Of a stretch of 64,000 nt of DNA, positions 42,501-62,366 are shown piece after piece. Every line of letters begins with the position of its first letter. Position 1 is the stretch's first letter. A program made the translations under genes and the position numbers. Source of the DNA: Antedon mediterranea (lineage: Eukaryota > Echinodermata > Crinoidea > Comatulida > Antedonidae); NCBI RefSeq assembly GCF_964355755.1, contig NC_092670.1, positions 16,057,201 through 16,121,200 on the forward strand, in the 5' to 3' direction. The notes under the pieces are model-generated. The model was not told the DNA's origin. It worked only from the letters and a program-made list of their open reading frames with translations, and made no database searches.

Positions 42501-43749
42501 GGGGAGGTTCCTATACACTGTAGTTTTTAATAGAACGTCAATTTTTTGAAAATCTGTACTTATAATTTGTTTCCATAGTAATATTGAAGGTGATGATGTA
42601 TCAAAGTCTTGTTGGAAAGGAAAATCTATTAATAAGATGAATGTATATAGAATATATTTGGTACGTATTCATATAAAGAGTGTAAATAAAAATGCCACAT
42701 AGATTACATAACTTTTGTGATGTACAGTACTAAAAATCTTGTAACTTTCTTTTCCAGACACTTTTTGCATTACTTCTTGGTCCGTTTGTTTTCTTTAACG
42801 TACAGAAAACAAAATATTTACAATACTTTACGACTGTTATGCGCTGGCTAGGTAAGCATTTTATTTACAACTTGTCTATAAGATTAGAAACAAAGCTTTG
42901 CCATTTAAAATCATGTCTCACAAATCCTTTTAAATTTTATTCAAGTTCACAACTTTTACAGATCATTCAACTCATTTATGTTTTTCTTTTAAACCGTGAC
43001 CTCTAGCATTTGGTACAATGATCATCGCAGCATTAGTTGCCATAGCAAATGGAAAAGGAGAAGGAAAACCAAGTAAATTCAGTAACATTACAAACGTGGC
43101 CAATTTGTTTGGAGTGTCAATCTACTCATTTATGTGTCATCATTCTCTACCGTCTCTCGTCTCGCCGATACGCAACAAGAATAAACTCACAAAGCTCTTT
43201 GCGTTCGACTATCTCTTAATTCTGGCATTCTACGTATTTCTGTGTATGTCTGCTATATTCTGCTTCGCAAACATTGAAGACTTATACACACTTAACTTCT
43301 CAGACAGCACAGTAATGCCAATCAAATTTTTCCAATACTTTTTAGGTTTATTTCCAGTTTTTACGCTTAGTGCGAGTTTTCCAATAATAGCTATAACACT
43401 TCGTAATAATTTAAAAACACTTTTCTCAGGCTACGGGCAAACGCGGCTGGGTAGATTTATATTCCCGATACTTACGGTTCTTCCTCCCGTTGCTGTAGCC
43501 TATGGAACGATTGATGTTGAGTTTCTTGTGAGTTTTACAGGATCTTACGCTGGTGCCACCATTCAATACGTTTTCCCATCACTGCTCGTGTATTATTGTC
43601 GTAAAAAGACGAAACGTTATCTAGGCGATCAAAAATATCATCAACATACGTCACCGTTTAAGAACTTTCTCTGGATTGTGTTTGTCAACATATGGTGTAT
43701 TGTTTGCATTGCATTGGTAACATATTACCATATTACCAGGAAACATTAA
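39544..43749 (+). CDS. TMEM104: TMEM104 family multi-pass membrane protein
   Basis: TMEM104 is a conserved multi-pass protein related to the amino-acid/auxin permease type of transporters; its substrate is not known to me. Exons: 39544-39588, 40035-40156, 40316-40400, 40623-40752, 41254-41340, 41906-42005, 42579-42660, 42758-42851 and 43007-43749. They sum to exactly 1488 nt, encoding 495 residues (human 496). Family motifs are in order: VGLVYIFNLIVGTGALALPK (helix 1), an acidic cytoplasmic loop in exon 4, FEITERVEMGKM, VVYLYGDLAIYA, LLLGPFVFFNVQKTKYLQ, YSFMCHHSLPSL and GLFPVFTLSASFPIIA. About ten membrane segments are visible. The large last exon encodes half the protein. An AATAAA lies at 44279. 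Intron 4 and intron 6 contain 17-bp minisatellites. Confidence 0.96.
39630..39800. repeat. CTAG/AGGCC-rich low-complexity patch
   Basis: It has dense short palindromic words (CTAGGCCAGGCC, GCTAGCTAGG, AGTAGTAGGCTAGGCC) in TMEM104 intron 1. A similar but longer patch is at 46735-47125. Confidence 0.7.
40882..40948 (+). repeat. tRNA-like fragment, probably SINE-derived
   Basis: ATGTGGTCTAATGGTTGC resembles an A box and GTGTTCGAATCTTAG a B box, with tRNA-like spacing. Acceptor and anticodon stems do not pair well, so a functional tRNA is unlikely. It lies in TMEM104 intron 4. Confidence 0.35.
41036..41238. repeat. 17-bp minisatellite (TGCTATACTGCTATATA)
   Basis: About a dozen units of a 17-bp motif, with some units shortened, end 15 bp before the acceptor of TMEM104 exon 5 (41254). 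Because 17 is not a multiple of 3 and the unit lacks stops, it makes overlapping open frames in all three plus frames. Confidence 0.93.
42112..42434. repeat. 17-bp minisatellite with 85-bp higher-order repeat
   Basis: About 19 units of AGTGTCCCTTTAATAAC occur in three variants: L (CCCTT), T (CTGCT) and C (CCGCT). After the first two units the order is L L L T C repeated three times, then L, so a five-unit (85 bp) block was amplified. It lies in TMEM104 intron 6, inside sequence related to the CCCCTATTAAGGGGAC family. Confidence 0.95.
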
Positions 43750-50934: not shown

Positions 50935-53900
50935 CTAAGGATCAAGGAAGTAAATTTGCTCAAATGATGAGATATCACCGGTATAAACAGGCTGGTAATT
51001 GTAGACTAGGTACTTGGATGCCTCCTCTTCACTCGAAAACCTATGGGTGCTTTTGCGGGCTATAGAAAAATGGAAGAATCGCACTATTATTATGCTGTAA
51101 CAAATACAAATTATACGGCTTTTATTTATCGTGTGTGTTTCTGATGAGCGCCGCCTTTGACGTGTCACTGTGTTTAGCGTTGACGCGTAAAGGCCAACTC
51201 AGACAGCTGTTTAAAGTTCTCAGCTCCCGACGACCTAAAAACTACACCCGCCGCCGACGCTATTTCAAGACGAATTCGTATCGTCGGGATTCAACTCAGA
51301 CAGGACCGACGAGTCAAAACGTTTCGTCGTCGGGCCTCGTCGTACGATGCTCTCTGAGTTGGCCTTTAGGCAAGGTGACCACAGGCATCGCTTGGGAAAG
51401 ATGGACATGTTTTTCGTTACTATTACTGTATTTTATACGCAATAATGATAGCTATGAGTTAGTCAGTTGTATTGGTTAGAAAAAAAATGGACGAATAAAT
51501 TTACCTTCATTGACCAGAAAATCAGCAACATATTGTGCTACAGCTGTTGCACGAAATGAGTGTGGGATGTTGTAGTCTTTTGAAGTATTCCATTCGAATA
51601 GATTCTTTTCAGGATGCCACTGGGTACCGTAGATTGGGTAATCATATGCTGTAGACAATAAAAAAAAAATAACTCTAACCAACAACGAGAAACCAACGCG
51701 ATCGTGCTTTAATTTGAGGCCTGTGGACTTGAAAGGCAAGCATGTTAACCACCCATATATTGCTATACACTCCTCATGTACAAATCATATCTTAAGTAAT
51801 ATTTTTATTTAATACAATTATTTTAGTATCGAGCTGAATTATATTACCTTCAATTGTTGACAAAAACTCAATTCCTTGCCTATCAATTATTCACCGATAA
51901 AACTCTGTAGAACTTTTCTAAACCGACCTTTGTAAAATTCTGTAAAATAAAATTAATGACATTTACTAAGTATTTTAAGTAATAATACGGTACCATGATA
52001 ACTTTTGAGGATTAGTTGAGCGAACTTGAGATTTACAACTTAATTCACTATAATCTGTGTTCAAGACGGAATTTTGACTTAATATTAGTAAAAAAGATAA
52101 ATATTTTGGCACATAGGGCGTTTCATACGTATAAAAGATTTTTAAAAAACCTTGAAATTACTACAGACTTGGGGAAAGTCTATGCACACCTTTTGAGAAA
52201 CTGAGTGCACGTGATTATTAAACGTAGTATTATGTTCCGTTAGCGCTTCTAAGACAGAGTATGGGGTTGTGTGTACGTTAAAAAGATTTCCATTGTCCAT
52301 ATCTGTACAAAAATAAATGAAACATTATTAGTGCGTATTATTAATTTGTTTTCCATTTCGGTGGACTGTATTTATTTATATTTTGCTCAGATCATGTGAA
52401 CATTAATATACTCATACTGTACTTTACCTGGAGTAAACTTCAAAGGAATTGCAAGATTTTCAGAGTCACTTCCATGTCTCATGATATCTTTTTTTATAGG
52501 TAATTGTGTTAAAAGTTGAAAGCCCAAACATATACCTAATATCGGGAAATAGTCTCCTGTTTTATCCATACCCTGTAAATGAAAAATGGTAAAAGATGAC
52601 TAAAATGTATCGTGAGTAAAATTTGTTCAGCTTGGGGCGTAATCTTCTCCACACTTTAATCTAGATTGAATCTGAGTTATTGTGAGAAATTAGTTGTAGA
52701 CCAGTTGGAAAACTTTAGAAGTCTACACTAGCAAAATTTAAATTGCCAAAAAAAAAACATATAAAAGTGTGGTGGTGTAAACTGTTTTAAAGAGAGGAGT
52801 AGTTAGGCCAGCCTACGTCGAGTTTAGTCATTGCAAATTAGACTGTATAGTTGTCTCATGAAAAACTATTTCACAGGCATGCTTTTAATTGTTACTAGAC
52901 AAAACACTTCAATGAGAAACAATAATAAAAGAAAACAAATCACCTACCTCAATAGACAAATCAAAAAATATTTTAGCTGTTTTGCCATAAGGCGATTGAA
53001 GTAAATTGTTAACATCACCTCCGGGTAAAATCAACCTGAGAATTAAACAAAATGAAACTGTTAAAATACGGTTGGTATATGCCAATGTTAAAATACTGTT
53101 AAAACGATTAATTCAAAACAAAAATTACAATATAGAGTTATCGTCGAAAATTTGAACTACATGAATGCATTTACAACAATGGACTTTCTATAGTCTTAGT
53201 ATAACTCTCCTCAAAATGGGTTTTCCGTAGTTAAAACATATTTTCTCTTATTCATTTTACACGGATCATGGAGTAACTCCATGCACGGATACTGGATAGG
53301 CTATCGAAGGTTGTTTACTGTACTAAAGAGAACCCTCTTTTGGGACACATCTTGTTTGTTGTTTGTTTGTTTGTAATATTTATTGCTTTCCATAAAACAC
53401 AATACAATAACATAAGTTTGAAATTAACAAGATCAAACAAAAACTAAATTAAGGGCACACTTTGTTGAGTCTTAAAGTGTCCCCTTTAAGACTATTATTA
53501 ATACACAGTTACGTATATACATACCCATTTAACGAGTTAAATAGTTTGACATAATAATCCTGTTTCTCGTTATTCTTTACAAGCACGACACGGGCACCAG
53601 CACACTCGGCGAACTTTACGTATGACGCTGCCACGTACGACGAACCATATTTCGATATTATTGTATGATTGGTTATCGTTTCTGCCACTATACCTTCATA
53701 GAAAATAAAATAATTTAATTAGATCACTTTATTTCAGAATAAATATTTCATTTACTGTACAACAAAATATAATACAAACCAGAAAATCAAACAAATAGGA
53801 TTTTTTCCCACTTAGTATAGGCTAGAGATTTAAATATCGTTACAAATAGTTCGTAGTAGGCTACACCTAACCAGATCATTTTCACTATTCACAACTTTTA

Positions 53901-54388
53901 ATTTTAATAATAAATAATAGAGAATTGTTAATTAAATTAGTACAATAGTGATCTTGTCTAAGCATGCATAAATAAGTACCGGTACTTATTTTATTCATAG
54001 CCTAAGCATGGAGCTGTCTGGGCTATCTCACTAACTATTGTAAAAAAGTAGCGAAGTTCTCATCAGTAACAGGCTAAATATATTAGGCTAACTATAATTA
54101 TTTCACATTTTTGCCGAGGGGATCGTGAGTTACTATGTCAGAATCAATTGTTATCCTAAATGTAATCGAATGTTTCTTACCTATATTTAATAATTCGAAT
54201 CGGATTATTAATTCAAATGTTTTGAAGTTTCCTTCACTACTTGTATCGACTGTTAAACAATTGTATTATTATAATGCGTAGACCTGTTTTATCAGTACTA
54301 GCTTACCTATTATAGGACGGTAATTCTTGTCTTGAGCATAGCACGCAAATGTCAAGAAGCAGCAGAACACAACTATGAAGATTCTCAT
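50935..54388 (-). CDS. GGH: Gamma-glutamyl hydrolase copy A, with a one-base frameshift
   Basis: Gamma-glutamyl hydrolase (peptidase family C26) removes glutamates from folate polyglutamates in lysosomes or after secretion. Exons: 54388-54307, 53693-53525, 53035-52948, 52572-52428, 52302-52190, 51939-51848, 51648-51505 and 51059-50935. Exon 1 encodes a signal peptide (MRIFIVVFCCFLTFACYAQ). Catalytic features are present at DNA level: Cys128 in GICLGFQLL, His in FNNHVHSV, His/Glu in QWHPEKN; the C terminus is FEQIYFLDP. Exon 6 is 92 nt against 91 in copy B and hits TGA and TAG (51885-51880) after VLSVNN, so the annotated frame stops at residue 217, before the QWHPEK motif. All other exons are intact with good splice sites, so this could be a young pseudogene, a polymorphism or a base error. 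An AATAAA is at 50843-50838. Confidence 0.9.
51188..51368. repeat. Palindromic MITE with TAAAGGCCAACTCAGA ends
   Basis: TAAAGGCCAACTCAGACAG at the left is inverted as CTCTGAGTTGGCCTTTA at the right. The interior is CG-rich (CCCGACGACC, GTCGTCGGGCC) and also inverted. It lies in hydrolase copy A intron 7. Confidence 0.85.
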
Positions 54389-55912: not shown

Positions 55913-58900
55913 TTACACATCCAGGAAGTAACCTTGCTCAAAAGATGCTGCATCAGCAATATAAACAGCCTGGTTATTGTAGACCAGGTACTTAGACGCC
56001 TCATCTTCACTGGAGAACTTGTGGGTGCTCTTGCGTGCTGTTGAGTAATAACAGACAAGACTGTAAGTGTATTCAATTCTCAACTACTAATTTAACAGCA
56101 AAATTTCATTAAATGATACCTTAATAAGTGTTTTATATAAGTTGTAATCTCATCAGCCGATTCTCAGTACTGTATCTATTTCCAAAGTATCATAGGAATA
56201 TTTGGTGATACAACATCCCACGTGTTTCACAATGTATCTAGTAGTAACCTAACCCTTAACATAACCTTACATGATACAGGCCACATGTGATATAAATGAG
56301 ATGCTGCACTTCCAAATATTCCTATGATACTTTGGAAATAGATAGTATGTGCAGTTAACAGCAATGGGAGAGAGAGGGGTCTACATCCAGACCAAAGTCT
56401 GCTTGTGATATCAGACATAAAGTAGGGGGTGGGGTTATACCGGAAGTGGGATTATACCCGGGGTGGGGTTATACCCGGGGTGGGGTTATACCCGGGGTGG
56501 GGTTATACCCGGGGTGGGGTTATACCCGGGGTGGGGTTATACCCGGGGTGGGGTTATACCCGGGGTGGGGTTATACCCGGGGTGGGGTTATACCCGAGGA
56601 TATATGGTAATTCTATGATAATTAGAATTTTGAATAATACCTTCTCTGACGAAAAAGTTAGCAGTATGTTGCGCAACGGACACTGCCGCTGTGGAGTGTG
56701 GGATTGCTGAATCAGCATGTGGGTTCCATTCAAATATATTCTTTTCAGGATGCCATTGGACACCATAGATAGGATACTCAAATGCTATAGAGTAAAGAAA
56801 ACAATTTAGTAATGGGATAATGGTATATTTGTAAGAACATTATTTTTAATGAAAATTTCATCCATGTAAAATAAGTTTATAAATAAATAAAAAATAAATA
56901 TTATTCATCAATTGAATGAAAACACCTGTAATGGGCAAAATGCATATAGGTAAAATAACTATACTTTTGCGACACCAAGAAGTGGTTCAGCCATTTTGAA
57001 CAGTAGGTCATTAGATTTGTGTCAACACTTCATGTTACCTAGGCCTGGCATGGCATAAATTTCAAAATCTTGGAACCAATATATGTTAGATATATCAATT
57101 TATTGATTTTCTAAAATCAATAGGTATGGTCTGTTGGTATATACCTATTTGTGCGGGAAAACAACTGGACGATAACCATTGAATATACCTTGAAAATGCT
57201 TTGTAAGCAATTTGCCAAGTAAAATGTATTACTATATATACTGATACAATAATGACCACTTCTTACCTTCCATTGTTGAAATAAACTCAACTCCCTTTCT
57301 ATCTTTATTCACAGATGTCACTCTGAAGAATTTATCAATGCCAAATGTAGTTAAATTCTGAAAATTAATGAATATAAATTACTTTCAATAAAACATATTA
57401 TGATTCCCATTGTTTATCTAAATATACTGTAAAGCTCTGACTACACTATCAAACTAGTTTGACAAAAAAAGTGTGATTTGTCCAAATATGGTAGTGATAT
57501 GCCTAAATATGGTAGTGGTATGACACCATCATGTCTATATATGGGCACATCACATTTTTGTTATCACATAATAGTGTAGACAGATAAAGAGCTTATGAGA
57601 AGTAAAGCACAAAAAATATAACGATGCATTATGGAATTATTTGAACTCATCTTAAATGATTGTTTTGTACTGTATTTTGAGCATTTTACCGTATACCTAT
57701 GTGAAACACTGGTGAAATATGATAACAATATGAAATAGATGGTTTATATTAAATAGTTTTTAAATATTTTAATAATTATAAAAATAATTTTAAATATAAA
57801 ATATAAGAATAACATTTTTGGTAAATACTAATACTACTTTACTATTTTAAAGCAAAATAAAAAATATTGAAAAAATAACAACAAGCCACAAGCTGTTACA
57901 GCACAACTCACTTACTGCATACATAGCTATAGATCTTTAAATAAAGTTGTTATTAATAAAATATATTATATAATTTATAATAAATAGTTAATTTTGTCAA
58001 TATAAAATATAATAATACTCTTATACTAATACTACTAAATACTATTTTAAAGCAAAATAAAAGATATTGACAACATCATTAGTGAAATTATAACAAGCCA
58101 CAAGATGTTAAAGCAAAGCTGACATATATAGATAGATCTTTTAAATACAGTTGTTAATAATAATAAGCTAAGTTGTACAGTAAACCAACTCTATGAGGTA
58201 CATCTAAAATAAGATTTTAAAGAAAGCCACAAGAAAAAGCTTTATTAAAAAGAAAGAAGTTAGAATTAATTTCATTTTGACATCACACTCTTCTATTCTA
58301 CAATACGTATAATATGCTGTACACCATAGCATCAAGCAAGTGACATGCTAGCAATGTACTTTATACATAACCTCACCTTCATGGTGACACCAAAATGATG
58401 AGCATTGTAAGTGCTATTTTCAGTTGTCATAGCTTTGAATACAAACCCAGAAGTTGTAAGAACATCAAAGATACGACTCTCAACAAAATCTGATGTAAGT
58501 TAAAACATTACATATTAAATAAAAACTATCATTTTAAACTACTAAAGCTCTGTCTACACTATTATATCAAACTAGTTTGACAAAAAAAGTGTGATATGCC
58601 CAAATATGGCAGTTATATACGCAAATATGGTAGTGATATGACATCAGCATGTCCATATATGGGCACATCACATTGTAGACAGAGCTTAAAGTACTGACTC
58701 GGTTATAAGCTCTGCTTGCGCATTTGTTTGAGTTTGCATGAGAAACTAAAGCTCTGTCTACACTATCAAACTAGTTTGACAAAAAATTGTGTCCACATGG
58801 ACACATCACATTTTTTTGTCGTCACAGAAAGTTTGATAGTGTAGACAAGGCTTAAGGTAAATCAAAGCCTGTATCTTTTAAATAAACCATTATTTAGCAT

Positions 58901-61900
58901 ACAATAACTCCAAATACGAGGGGTCAGGTCCTTATTTAGCCAGGGTGAGAGCTTATACCTGTTTCAATACATAACTAAGATTTCGCACCTTTTGTGTGAC
59001 CCCCCAACAATGGTGGTTGTAAGTAGTTTTATCTTTTGTGACTGCTTCAAGTACTTCAGGAGGAGTTGCAATCAAATCAAAGATACGGCTTCTAATAAAA
59101 TCTATGTTCAAATAGTATTACATATATTAAACAATTGTACAGTCATACTGTAATTTCTTTTAAAACAGGACAAATACATAATAATAATAATAATAATGGA
59201 AATTTGTAAAGCGCAAGCATCCGTCTAAAAAAAGACGCTCACTGCGCTACACACATATATACAGTGGGGTAAAGGCTATAGCCACTCACTGGCTAAACCA
59301 AGAGGCCCCTGAGCTTAGGTGGCTCCTGAGCAGTGCCCAGAGGAAAAAACAGGCATTAAAATATGTTTTAAAAAGGCTAAAAACAACCAAGGCGTCCAGC
59401 GTTCGAGGGCCACTTAGGGTTCCTAAACCAGGAGCCTTGGGTCTCTACGTTACGCCACTGCATATGTATAAATATACACAAGGTAGTAACGGTATTTGAT
59501 GCGGTTACAAGATGGTCAGAGGCTTCAAGAACAGGGAGGGCAATTATTTATTTCAAATATATAATAGCACCTGAGGTGAGTTCCAATGGTAATGCAAGAT
59601 TTTCTGCATCAATTCCACTAATCAGGATGTCTTTACCAGCAGCGAGTGATGCCAAAAGCTGATGACCCTCACATGTACCCCAGATCGGGAAGTAGTCGCC
59701 ATTTTTCTTCATACCCTATAAAACACAGTATGTGGAATAATATGATATTATTTAAAGATGTATTGTTCCCCTGAAAAAATTATTTTTAAACATTTTTTGT
59801 TGTTGAATATGCCAATTTAATGTCACATAATAGTTATTCGCTATGACCAAAAATTGGATCGAGAAAAAAAATTGGTTATCTGAAAAAACTGTAATTTAAA
59901 GCAAAAAATAGTCAAATTGACTGCCAGTCAATGTGTTTTTGGTTGAATTTAACCTTTTATTTGTCAATTTATAAGTGAAAACATTATTATGGTTTTTTTT
60001 TCTACGAAAGTGATTAACTAGATTAAAACTATAAAATAACATATTCAAAGTCTGATTTAATTAATCTTAATTGTTCATGTTTTTGGGAACAATGCATCTT
60101 TAACAATTGTTATTGTTTGAATTGTAGCCACCAGCCAGTTTATCTCTGAGAGTTCAAGGTAACTGGACAACCAACAATGAACAAGTTAACATGTAATCTG
60201 TGTATTTTTTAACAAATGTTGAATATCATACATTAATATTATTATGCAAGTCATAGGCTAAATAGTACGTCAGCTGATATCATCCATTCTTCGGTCAGTT
60301 AAACATTCTACTCTCTGTCTCGTGATGTCTGTTAATTCTCGATTATAGGAAAGGAGGTTTGAATCACATAGCTTAGTCCAATTTATGGATTTATAAAAGA
60401 AAGGAATTTTTACCTCAATAGACATATCAAAAAATATTTTAGCAGCTTTTCCGTATCCAGAAGCAAGCACATCTAATTGGTCTCCTCCTGGCAACAGAAG
60501 TCTGAAAAAAAAATTAATTAAAATATTTCATGAAACTGAAATTTAATTGGCTAACAATGGATATATTTATCTAGATTTGTCAGACAGTTTAACTATATTT
60601 ACCCATTTAGTGAGTTGAACAGTTTGATGTAGTAGTCATGAGATTGGTTTATCTTTACAAGAACGACTCTAGCACCCCCAGACTCCAGATATTTCACATA
60701 TGATGCAACAACAACTGATGGACCGAACTTTACCAAACTATCATGAGTCTCTTGTGACATAACACCTGAAAAAATTGAAATTGGGTTTTTTAATCTTAAA
60801 AATAAATTAAAATTATATGTAGACAAGCCCTGTCTACACTATCAAACTTTATGTGACAAAAAAATGTTATGTGCCGATATATGGGGCATGATGAATGATG
60901 ATATATCACTACCATATTTTGGCATATCACTACTAGTAGTACTATATTTGGGCACATCACACTTTTTTTTGTCACATAAAGTTTGATAAATGAAGACAGC
61001 GCTTTAGAAACCACAATTAATTTATTAAATTAAAAACAATAAAAATTAACAAAAATCATCCTCATTTGATTGACACTTACCTTCAAACAGCAGCTGCAGA
61101 TAATAGTCAGGATACATGAAATGCTCACCAAGGCCATTATTAATCGACATATATTACTGATTAATTCAGCCTAGGCCTAGCTAGGCCTATCTATACTAGA
61201 CTACTAACTAGTACTTGTTATAGATATCATGGCCTCATAAACCAGCCTGTGTGTTGCAGCAGGATATTATTTCCGCCTTCGCGTCGATGTAAAATACACG
61301 GCGCTAGTTCCGTTTCGCACCTGTCGTTTATTTCGACTCAAAATTGGTTAAGTAACTTTATCGTGAGTACCACACCTTAGAATTAGGCCTCAAAAATACT
61401 TTTACGAAGGAGATCACACAAAAAGTAAAAAATAAATCCTTTAAATTGATAAATTCACAGACGTGTTTCTCGCATATCGGTTTGTGAATTTCGCATACTC
61501 CATGTTCAATGTTGTTGTTTCTATGGAGCGCCAAAAGAGCAATCATAATTAGAGGGCTAAAAACTCAGTAAATTGCGTATATTTAATGCATTTATTGGTG
61601 AAAATTACGTTCAATTTTATCATATTTTGTCAATGTCAACGCAACAAAAATATTACTGTTGATACTGTACATGGTTTTTGAAGGAACTTTTATTTTAGGA
61701 ATGAAAATCGACAAATTCATTATCATATAAAATGTACTGCTGTAGGGGTATACCTGATCTAAATAATATTCCTCTTAGTCTATTTTCTTACTCTTAGTTA
61801 GGCCTAGGGTTGGTTGCTATTTGAAAACCGCAAATTATTAGCAGTAAAATGTTACAGCATTTTTATTGACAAAATATATTAAAATTAAACGTGTATTTCA

Positions 61901-62366
61901 ATAATAAATGCATTAAAAGAAGACGCATTCCACTGAGTTTTTAACCATCTGTTGTTGTTGCTCTTTTGGCGCTCCATAGAAACGAAAATATTGAACTTCG
62001 AGTATGCTAAATTCGCGAACGGTATGCGAGAATCATGTCTGTAAAATCATCAATTTAAGGATTTATTTGTTACTTTTTATGTGATTCTTCTTCATAAAAG
62101 TACTTATGAGGCCAAATTTTAAGGTGTGGTATTCACAATAAGTTGCTTAACAATTTCGAGTCAAAAGGAAGTCGAAATAAAAACAGGTGCGAAACGGAAC
62201 TAGCGCCAAATACACTGCATTCTAGTTTACAGATTTTGAAAACAAAAGAGTAGTATCAAGGTGTATTTTACTTACCAATGATAGGACGGTCATTTTGGCC
62301 AAAACAAGTGTTGACCAAACAAGAAAAGAGTACGATGAAATTTACCAACCCAAAAACTACAGCCAT
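55913..62366 (-). CDS. GGH: Gamma-glutamyl hydrolase copy B, with duplicated exon 5
   Basis: Exons: 62366-62276, 60765-60603, 60501-60414, 59715-59571, one of 59101-58989 or 58489-58377, 57357-57267, 56784-56641 and 56037-55913. The sum is 960 nt, encoding 319 residues (human 318). Exon 1 encodes a signal peptide ([17 protein letters not shown]) followed by NDRPIIG, the usual start of the mature enzyme. Motifs: [25 protein letters not shown], catalytic Cys129 in [10 protein letters not shown], His193 in exon 5, His242 and Glu244 in QWHPEK, and C-terminal [10 protein letters not shown]. Exon lengths 3, 4, 5, 7 and 8 equal those of copy A, confirming tandem duplication. The frame is fully open. 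Predicted location is lysosome or secreted; role is folate polyglutamate breakdown. Introns hold many MITEs. Confidence 0.94.
56172..56343. repeat. Inverted repeat with 32-bp perfect arms
   Basis: CTATTTCCAAAGTATCATAG at the left is exactly inverted at the right; the exact match runs 32 bp on each side, separated by about 105 bp. It lies in GGH copy B intron 7 and is structurally MITE-like. Confidence 0.85.
56430..56597. repeat. 17-bp minisatellite (GGGGTTATACCCGGGGT)
   Basis: Ten units spaced exactly 17 bp (TTATAC at 56435, 56452 ... 56588). The first two units are diverged and the rest are nearly identical. The unit contains the palindrome-like GGGTTATACCC. It lies 45 bp from the donor of GGH copy B exon 7 (56641). 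The glycine/proline-rich open frame across it is an artefact of the repeat. Confidence 0.95.
57430..57594. repeat. CTCTGTCTACAC palindromic MITE, copy 12
   Basis: The left end is TAAAGCTCTGACTACACTAT; the right end is partly eroded (ATAGTGTAGACAGATAAAGA). It lies in GGH copy B intron 5. Confidence 0.8.
58377..58489 (-). other. GGH: GGH copy B exon 5, version b
   Basis: It is also 113 nt, with the same phases and good splice sites (TACATCAG before, AAG|GTGAGG after). It encodes [18 protein letters not shown] and then [13 protein letters not shown], keeping the aligned His but changing its neighbours (A-H-H-F for H-H-C-W). Reading a and b together would shift the frame and meet a stop inside b, so the two should be alternatives. 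Confidence 0.9.
58543..58689. repeat. CTCTGTCTACAC palindromic MITE, copy 13
   Basis: The left end is TAAAGCTCTGTCTACACTAT. The right arm has lost the TTTGATAGT part and ends TGTAGACAGAGCTTAA. It lies between the two alternative GGH copy B exons. Confidence 0.85.
58746..58855. repeat. CTCTGTCTACAC palindromic MITE, copy 14 (short)
   Basis: Both ends are good (CTAAAGCTCTGTCTACACTA, TAGTGTAGACAAGGCTTAAG) but the interior is deleted. It also lies between the alternative exons 5a and 5b. Confidence 0.85.
58989..59101 (-). other. GGH: GGH copy B exon 5, version a
   Basis: It is 113 nt long, entering in phase 1 and leaving in phase 0. It encodes [20 protein letters not shown] and then [13 protein letters not shown]. 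The second His of NHH aligns with the active-site His171 region (NFHKWS) of the human enzyme. Its donor is AAAAG|GTGCGA. Confidence 0.9.
59180..59260. mobile_element. LINE 3' end remnant with (AAT)n tail
   Basis: An (AAT)n run is followed by GGAAATTTGTAAAGCGCAAG and a CGCTCACTGCGCTACA stretch, resembling the 3' ends at 9319 and 10898. Only the extreme 3' end is present. Confidence 0.5.
59272..59460. repeat. MITE with CAGTGG..CCACTG termini, copy 2
   Basis: It starts CAGTGGGGTAAAGGCTATAG and ends CTACGTTACGCCACTG. The interior is shared with 594-803. It abuts the LINE remnant and lies in GGH copy B intron 4. Confidence 0.75.
59752..60103. repeat. MITE with TTAAAGATGTATTGTTCCC ends
   Basis: The left TTAAAGATGTATTGTTCCC is inverted at the right as GGGAACAATGCATCTTTAA. 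It is about 350 bp long, AT-rich inside, with no open frame. A partial relative is at 12612. It lies in GGH copy B intron 3. Confidence 0.85.
60826..61006. repeat. CTCTGTCTACAC palindromic MITE, copy 15
   Basis: The left end is ACAAGCCCTGTCTACACTAT; the right end is ATAAATGAAGACAGCGCTTT, diverged. An internal ACTAGTAGTACTA insertion is seen. It lies in GGH copy B intron 1. Confidence 0.8.
61080..61151 (-). other. Possible alternative first exon of GGH copy B
   Basis: An ATG (61151) opens a frame [17 protein letters not shown] that ends in phase 1 at a perfect donor (GAAG|GTAAGT), matching exon 2. In a different frame an ATG in good context (ATAATGGCC) gives [19 protein letters not shown], a signal-peptide-like sequence, but that frame does not join exon 2 in phase. 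It may be a relic or alternative 5' exon. Confidence 0.35.
61284..62218. repeat. Large foldback element
   Basis: The arms are about 350 bp: GGCGCTAGTTCCGTTTCGCA near 61300 is inverted as GTGCGAAACGGAACTAGCGCC near 62190, and TCTATGGAGCGCCAAAAGAG near 61520 is inverted near 61970. A loop of about 220 bp separates the arms. The arms have diverged by point changes and small indels. It fills most of the 5' part of GGH copy B intron 1. No transposase was found. Confidence 0.9.

Follow-up and report, generated by a model that had tools for sequence, protein, structure and literature searches.

A candidate pair of mutually exclusive exons in a gamma-glutamyl hydrolase gene of the crinoid Antedon mediterranea

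The closest described parallel to the exon pair considered here is the 4a/4b pair of OGDH, in which neighbouring homologous internal exons, matched in length and phase, swap one segment of an enzyme (PMC7969005). As in our pair, the lengths of the OGDH exons are not divisible by three, and a transcript is productive only when a single one of the two is included. Such lengths are a feature of many mutually exclusive exons (MXEs): 60% of human MXE clusters include exons whose length is not divisible by three (PMC5740500). The published criteria for recognizing MXEs in genomic sequence ask for homologous exons that resemble each other in length and conserve their splice sites and reading frame, and on the Drosophila X chromosome the combination of length, frame and homology was shared by only 0.56% of exons that are not exclusively spliced (PMC3228551). 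Tandem gene arrays are a known origin of false MXE calls (PMC3228551). Below we compare with these systems two versions of exon 5 in a gene for gamma-glutamyl hydrolase (GGH), and weigh the evidence that each of them is used.

Two GGH genes and a doubled exon 5

We analysed a 64,000-nt window of the Antedon mediterranea assembly (contig NC_092670.1, positions 16,057,201 to 16,121,200 of the forward strand), and all coordinates given below are those of the window. The assembly comprises 354 Mb in 18 contigs. Its echinoderm character shows in two tektin exons, which score 199 and 211 bits against the tektins of PDB entry 8SNB, from the sperm axoneme of a sea urchin, the next best entries reaching 137 and 135 bits; a search for COX1 gave no match. 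The assembly contains two GGH genes, here called copy A and copy B, both inside this 64-kb window. With the copy B protein as the query, a search of the whole genome matched the exons of these two copies alone. A Pfam family search of the genome did not pick up GGH, probably owing to the shortness of the exons, and the protein query succeeded.

Copy B lies on the minus strand and spans 62366-55913. Exon 1 (62276-62366, 91 nt) carries the start codon and a signal-peptide-like N terminus, and ends at the donor TTG/GTAAGT. It is followed by exon 2 (60603-60765, 163 nt), exon 3 (60414-60501, 88 nt) and exon 4 (59571-59715, 145 nt), the last of which encodes the nucleophile cysteine in the motif GTCEGHQ, equivalent to human Cys110, and has a modest donor (CAG/GTGCTA). 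Two alternative versions of exon 5 come next, 5a (58989-59101) and 5b (58377-58489), each of 113 nt and each encoding a 38-residue peptide whose first D is shared with exon 4. Exon 6 (57267-57357, 91 nt), exon 7 (56641-56784, 144 nt), with the catalytic histidine in VQWHPEKN that is equivalent to human His220, and exon 8 (55913-56037, 125 nt), with the stop codon, complete the gene. When either 5a or 5b is spliced in alone, the coding sequence is 960 nt long and open to the stop, giving a protein of 319 amino acids.

The introns of copy B hold other features as well. Intron 7 contains 10 copies of a 17-nt tandem repeat (GGGGTGGGGTTATACCC) at 56426-56596. A long inverted repeat in intron 1 (61300-62250), spotted by eye, is perhaps a foldback DNA transposon; its arms measure about 250 nt and end near GGCGCTAGTTCCG/CGGAACTAGCGCC. 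On the minus strand at about 61138-61082, a hydrophobic stretch of 19 codons led by ATG and followed by a good donor (AAG/GTAAGT) resembles an alternative signal-peptide exon, with the wrong phase for exon 2.

The first-pass annotation had described two homologous 113-nt exons at 59101-58989 and 58489-58377. We recovered both at exactly these positions, each with an AG upstream and a GT downstream and in the same phase, and the gene model agrees equally with the end of exon 4 (59571) and the start of exon 6 (57357) that had been proposed. Exons 5a and 5b are adjacent internal exons of equal length separated by an intron of 499 nt; neither contains a stop or an indel, and with each the frame is open from exon 4 to exon 6. 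Identity between them is 64% at the DNA level and 50% at the protein level. As a query against the whole 354-Mb genome, the 5b peptide matched itself, 5a (E = 3.8e-5) and exon 5 of copy A, and within the locus tblastn matched 5a and 5b at E = 1e-10, so the likeness of the two exons is not a matter of chance. Whole-genome and locus searches found every other exon of copy B in a single version; exon 5 alone is doubled.

Including both exons yields a coding sequence of 1073 nt with a stop inside 5b, which bears out the predicted frameshift, while skipping both yields 847 nt in a frame that stops in exon 6. Exclusive use had been taken to follow from this arithmetic. What does follow is that a full-length enzyme needs exactly one of 5a and 5b; that both exons are used does not, and we infer their use from the character of the exons themselves. 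The pair shows every feature in the published genomic criteria, namely similar length, splice sites, shared phase and frame, and homology, and its double inclusion is non-productive. On this evidence we consider it probable that 5a and 5b are mutually exclusive exons, both versions being used singly.

Copy A, also on the minus strand (50935-54388), has 8 exons. Its exon 5 (52190-52302, 113 nt), which we used as a comparator, is the only one, as the first-pass annotation had stated, and its introns hold no relic of a second. The same annotation overlooked the length of exon 6 in copy A (51848-51939), which is 92 nt rather than 91. The one extra base makes the sequence read AAT AAT TGA, with the TGA in frame, and the frame ends before the catalytic histidine. 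Copy A has no other lesion and has diverged from copy B under constraint (pS 0.69, pN 0.26), so that the frameshift is either a recent break, making copy A a pseudogene, or an assembly error. Over the exons as a whole dS between the copies is about 1.9 and dN 0.32, with exon 5 changing fastest (dN about 0.6, versus 0.15-0.33). Because of the frameshift, copy A as assembled is a poor comparator. Copy B is, as assembled, the sole intact GGH gene found, which raises the interest of its exon pair. An open frame on the plus strand with a match to CIDE-N (PF02017; 49414-49764) adjoins the 3' end of copy A, and another plus-strand open frame, at 43000-43746, matches PF01490, a family of transmembrane amino acid transporters.

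The enzyme and the segment that is swapped

Copy B shows full-length homology to vertebrate GGH of peptidase family C26 (246 bits to human 1L9X and 268 bits to zebrafish 4L7Q) and retains the motifs of the catalytic Cys and His. Matched to zebrafish GGH along nearly its whole length, the isoform with 5a scores 268 bits and that with 5b 265 bits; against the PF07722 profile, with a cut-off of 20.5 bits, the scores are 61.2 and 68.4 bits, respectively. The scores are nearly equal in both comparisons, indicating that 5a and 5b fit GGH about equally well. Hydrolysis of folate polyglutamates is the predicted function of both isoforms.

The first-pass annotation had placed the exon pair at the active-site histidine. 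Exon 5 does encode a conserved histidine that aligns with human His171 (NFHKWS), a residue that we take to be near the active site but not the essential histidine, and the alignment proposed for it is sound: the histidine is present in both versions of the exon, in copy A, and in the human and zebrafish enzymes. However, the equivalents of the catalytic residues Cys110 and His220 lie in the constitutive exons 4 and 7. This placement rests on the alignments together with zebrafish variants altered at those two residues. In the alignment with human 1L9X, Cys110 (chain position 131) falls in GTC and His220 (chain position 241) in QWHPEK, the numbering being offset by 21, and the zebrafish structures 4L8F and 4L8W are altered at precisely the equivalent positions (GTA and QWN).

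The T and N that precede the exon 5 histidine (TxNxH) are conserved in the same five sequences as the histidine, and the residues of SRxF are kept in both 5a and 5b. The neighbours of the histidine had been correctly contrasted as HHCW and AHHF, the fuller motifs being NHHCW in 5a and NAHHF in 5b. In 5a there is an added Cys adjoining the His. In 5b the P, E and W of the family are lost, and six residues before the His stands an N-glycosylation sequon, N-S-T, matched by N-T-T at the equivalent site of copy A; 5a lacks this sequon. Given such sequences, glycosylation, stability or substrate fit may set the two isoforms apart. That they would differ in folate-polyglutamate preference is speculation.

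Age, constraint and rival explanations

Exons 5a and 5b are separated by a dS of about 0.89 and a dN of about 0.41. Judging from the sequences, the exon duplication is probably younger than the gene duplication, and it should be old enough for a useless copy to show damage. We simulated neutral decay, counting an exon as intact if it had no stop and no indel and kept its AG and GT, with the indel rate assumed to be 10% of the rate of substitution. At 0.19 substitutions per site, the shortest neutral branch from the codon model, an exon was intact with P 0.02-0.03; at 0.35 substitutions per site, it was intact in about 0.1% of runs. It is thus unlikely that both exons stayed intact without selection (simulated P about 0.03 to <0.001).

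The codon model, which has three sequences and low power, fits worse with both exons neutral than with shared constraint (by 1.9 log units, P about 0.05). In the same low-power comparison, a model in which just the 5a branch has omega = 1 is not rejected (lnL -392.42 versus -392.38), and omega = 1 on the 5b branch is only weakly disfavoured. Enrichment for retained family-invariant residues was not significant (P 0.09 and 0.21). The two exons are equally far from exon 5 of copy A (49% identity for 5a and 48% for 5b), which argues against the release of either from constraint.

These results bear on the possibility that one exon alone is used and that the other is a relic of the duplication, recent or weakly used, that has yet to decay. 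The acceptor of 5a, the weakest of all with a pyrimidine content of 0.50, would fit such a relic, as would the neutral 5a branch that the codon model allows; if the relic were 5b, its loss of the family residues P, E and W would be explained. Against this, frames, lengths and splice sites are intact despite about 0.9 synonymous substitutions per site, a state that is unlikely under neutrality. The SRxF and TxNxH residues are present in both exons, and both are at the same distance from copy A. We judge the use of one exon alone to be unlikely.

Another possibility is that one exon serves the enzyme while the second acts as a switch, used mainly in frameshifted double-inclusion transcripts whose degradation by nonsense-mediated decay (NMD) would tune the level of GGH. 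The premature stop that double inclusion creates within 5b is upstream of three exon junctions, which speaks for a role of this kind. A poison exon, however, needs neither an open frame nor GGH residues nor an exact length, yet all of these are present in both exons, and we consider such a switch distinctly improbable. That the pair is a false one, in which exons from a tandem copy of the gene, or else alternative terminal exons, mimic an internal pair, is suggested by the tandem duplication of GGH at this locus (copy A) but contradicted by the copy B exons, none of which is doubled apart from exon 5, so that the main false-positive class of MXE prediction is removed, and by the pair itself, which encloses no other GGH exon and has an acceptor and a donor on both members, neither of which looks terminal; we give this explanation almost no credence.

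Exon choice and comparison with known systems

Regulated exons usually carry weak acceptors. Among the 15 acceptors in both genes, those of 5a and 5b are the poorest in pyrimidines (content 0.50 and 0.56), the others ranging from 0.69 to 0.88, with 0.81 for exon 5 of copy A. Under random ranking the chance that these two would be the lowest is 1/105; the measure was picked while viewing the sites, and the figure is a hint and not a test. Scored with a general consensus matrix, both donors are good (9.0 bits for 5a and 12.8 bits for 5b).

Several candidate routes to exclusion were rejected. Steric exclusion of 5a and 5b is ruled out by the 499-nt intron between them, and incompatibility of U2 and U12 sites is unlikely, the introns being all GT-AG with no U12-type donor. 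No clear docking or selector RNA structure is evident; the intronic inverted repeats are members of a palindromic repeat family that is very common. An Rbfox-type GCATG lies 29 nt after 5b (58348), which is within chance for a motif that occurs 0.69 times per kb on the same strand of the window.

Two palindromic MITE-like repeats occupy 58542-58856, in the intron between 5a and 5b, and the intron that separates 5b from exon 6 holds a repeat of the same family (57430-57590). The family has >4,500 first-look candidates genome-wide, and similar sequence occurs at about 60990-60820, within intron 1 of copy B, and around 49030-48910. We rejected these repeats as the origin of the exon duplication. 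Those flanking 5b are 88% identical, compared with 64% for the exons, and they lie 1118 nt apart, at odds with an exon spacing of 612 nt; in other words, the MITE-like repeats arrived after the exon duplication. It is possible that pairing between the repeats loops out 5b, but since each repeat folds on itself this is a guess.

Mutually exclusive splicing, the reading that we prefer, would operate as follows. After the tandem duplication of exon 5 in copy B, one version would be spliced in at a time, with regulators choosing between the exons through the weak acceptors of 5a and 5b, and NMD would clear transcripts with both exons or neither. Two secreted or lysosomal-type gamma-glutamyl hydrolases would be made, with the catalytic Cys and His in common, differing across the 37-residue segment that holds the His171 equivalent near the active site. 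More tentatively, and as something possible rather than expected, copy A may be broken, and the folate-polyglutamate hydrolase of this echinoderm may come from one locus as two enzymes, made by exclusive exon choice and differing in glycosylation and in the residues around the His171 equivalent. If so, exon duplication would here take on a role that usually falls to gene duplication.

Should 5a and 5b both be used, splicing could adjust how active GGH is on folate polyglutamates, a kind of control that the open-access papers searched do not describe for GGH. GGH also acts on antifolate drugs, for example methotrexate polyglutamates. The exon pair is a natural swap around a second histidine of the active site, and offers a ready experiment on the role of this segment in substrate preference. 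The first-pass annotation knew of no exclusive splicing in this enzyme family, and the open-access papers searched agree: gamma-glutamyl hydrolase is not linked there with mutually exclusive exons or exon duplication, and among 20 of the 22 papers that mention it along with alternative splicing, no title or abstract deals with such splicing of GGH.

MXEs are a common class of splicing in general, and in that respect 5a and 5b would be one further example. Compared with OGDH 4a/4b, the host gene here is that of gamma-glutamyl hydrolase, and exclusive use is inferred from sequence. Copy B gives no sign of the distant branch points by which the OGDH pair is made exclusive, with an upstream AG just 36 nt before the 5b acceptor. 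Compared with the human and zebrafish enzymes, copy B has the nucleophile motif GTCEGHQ in place of GTCLGFE, and differs in having two versions of the 37-residue segment around its His171 equivalent, a segment that exceeds its counterpart in those vertebrates by two residues.
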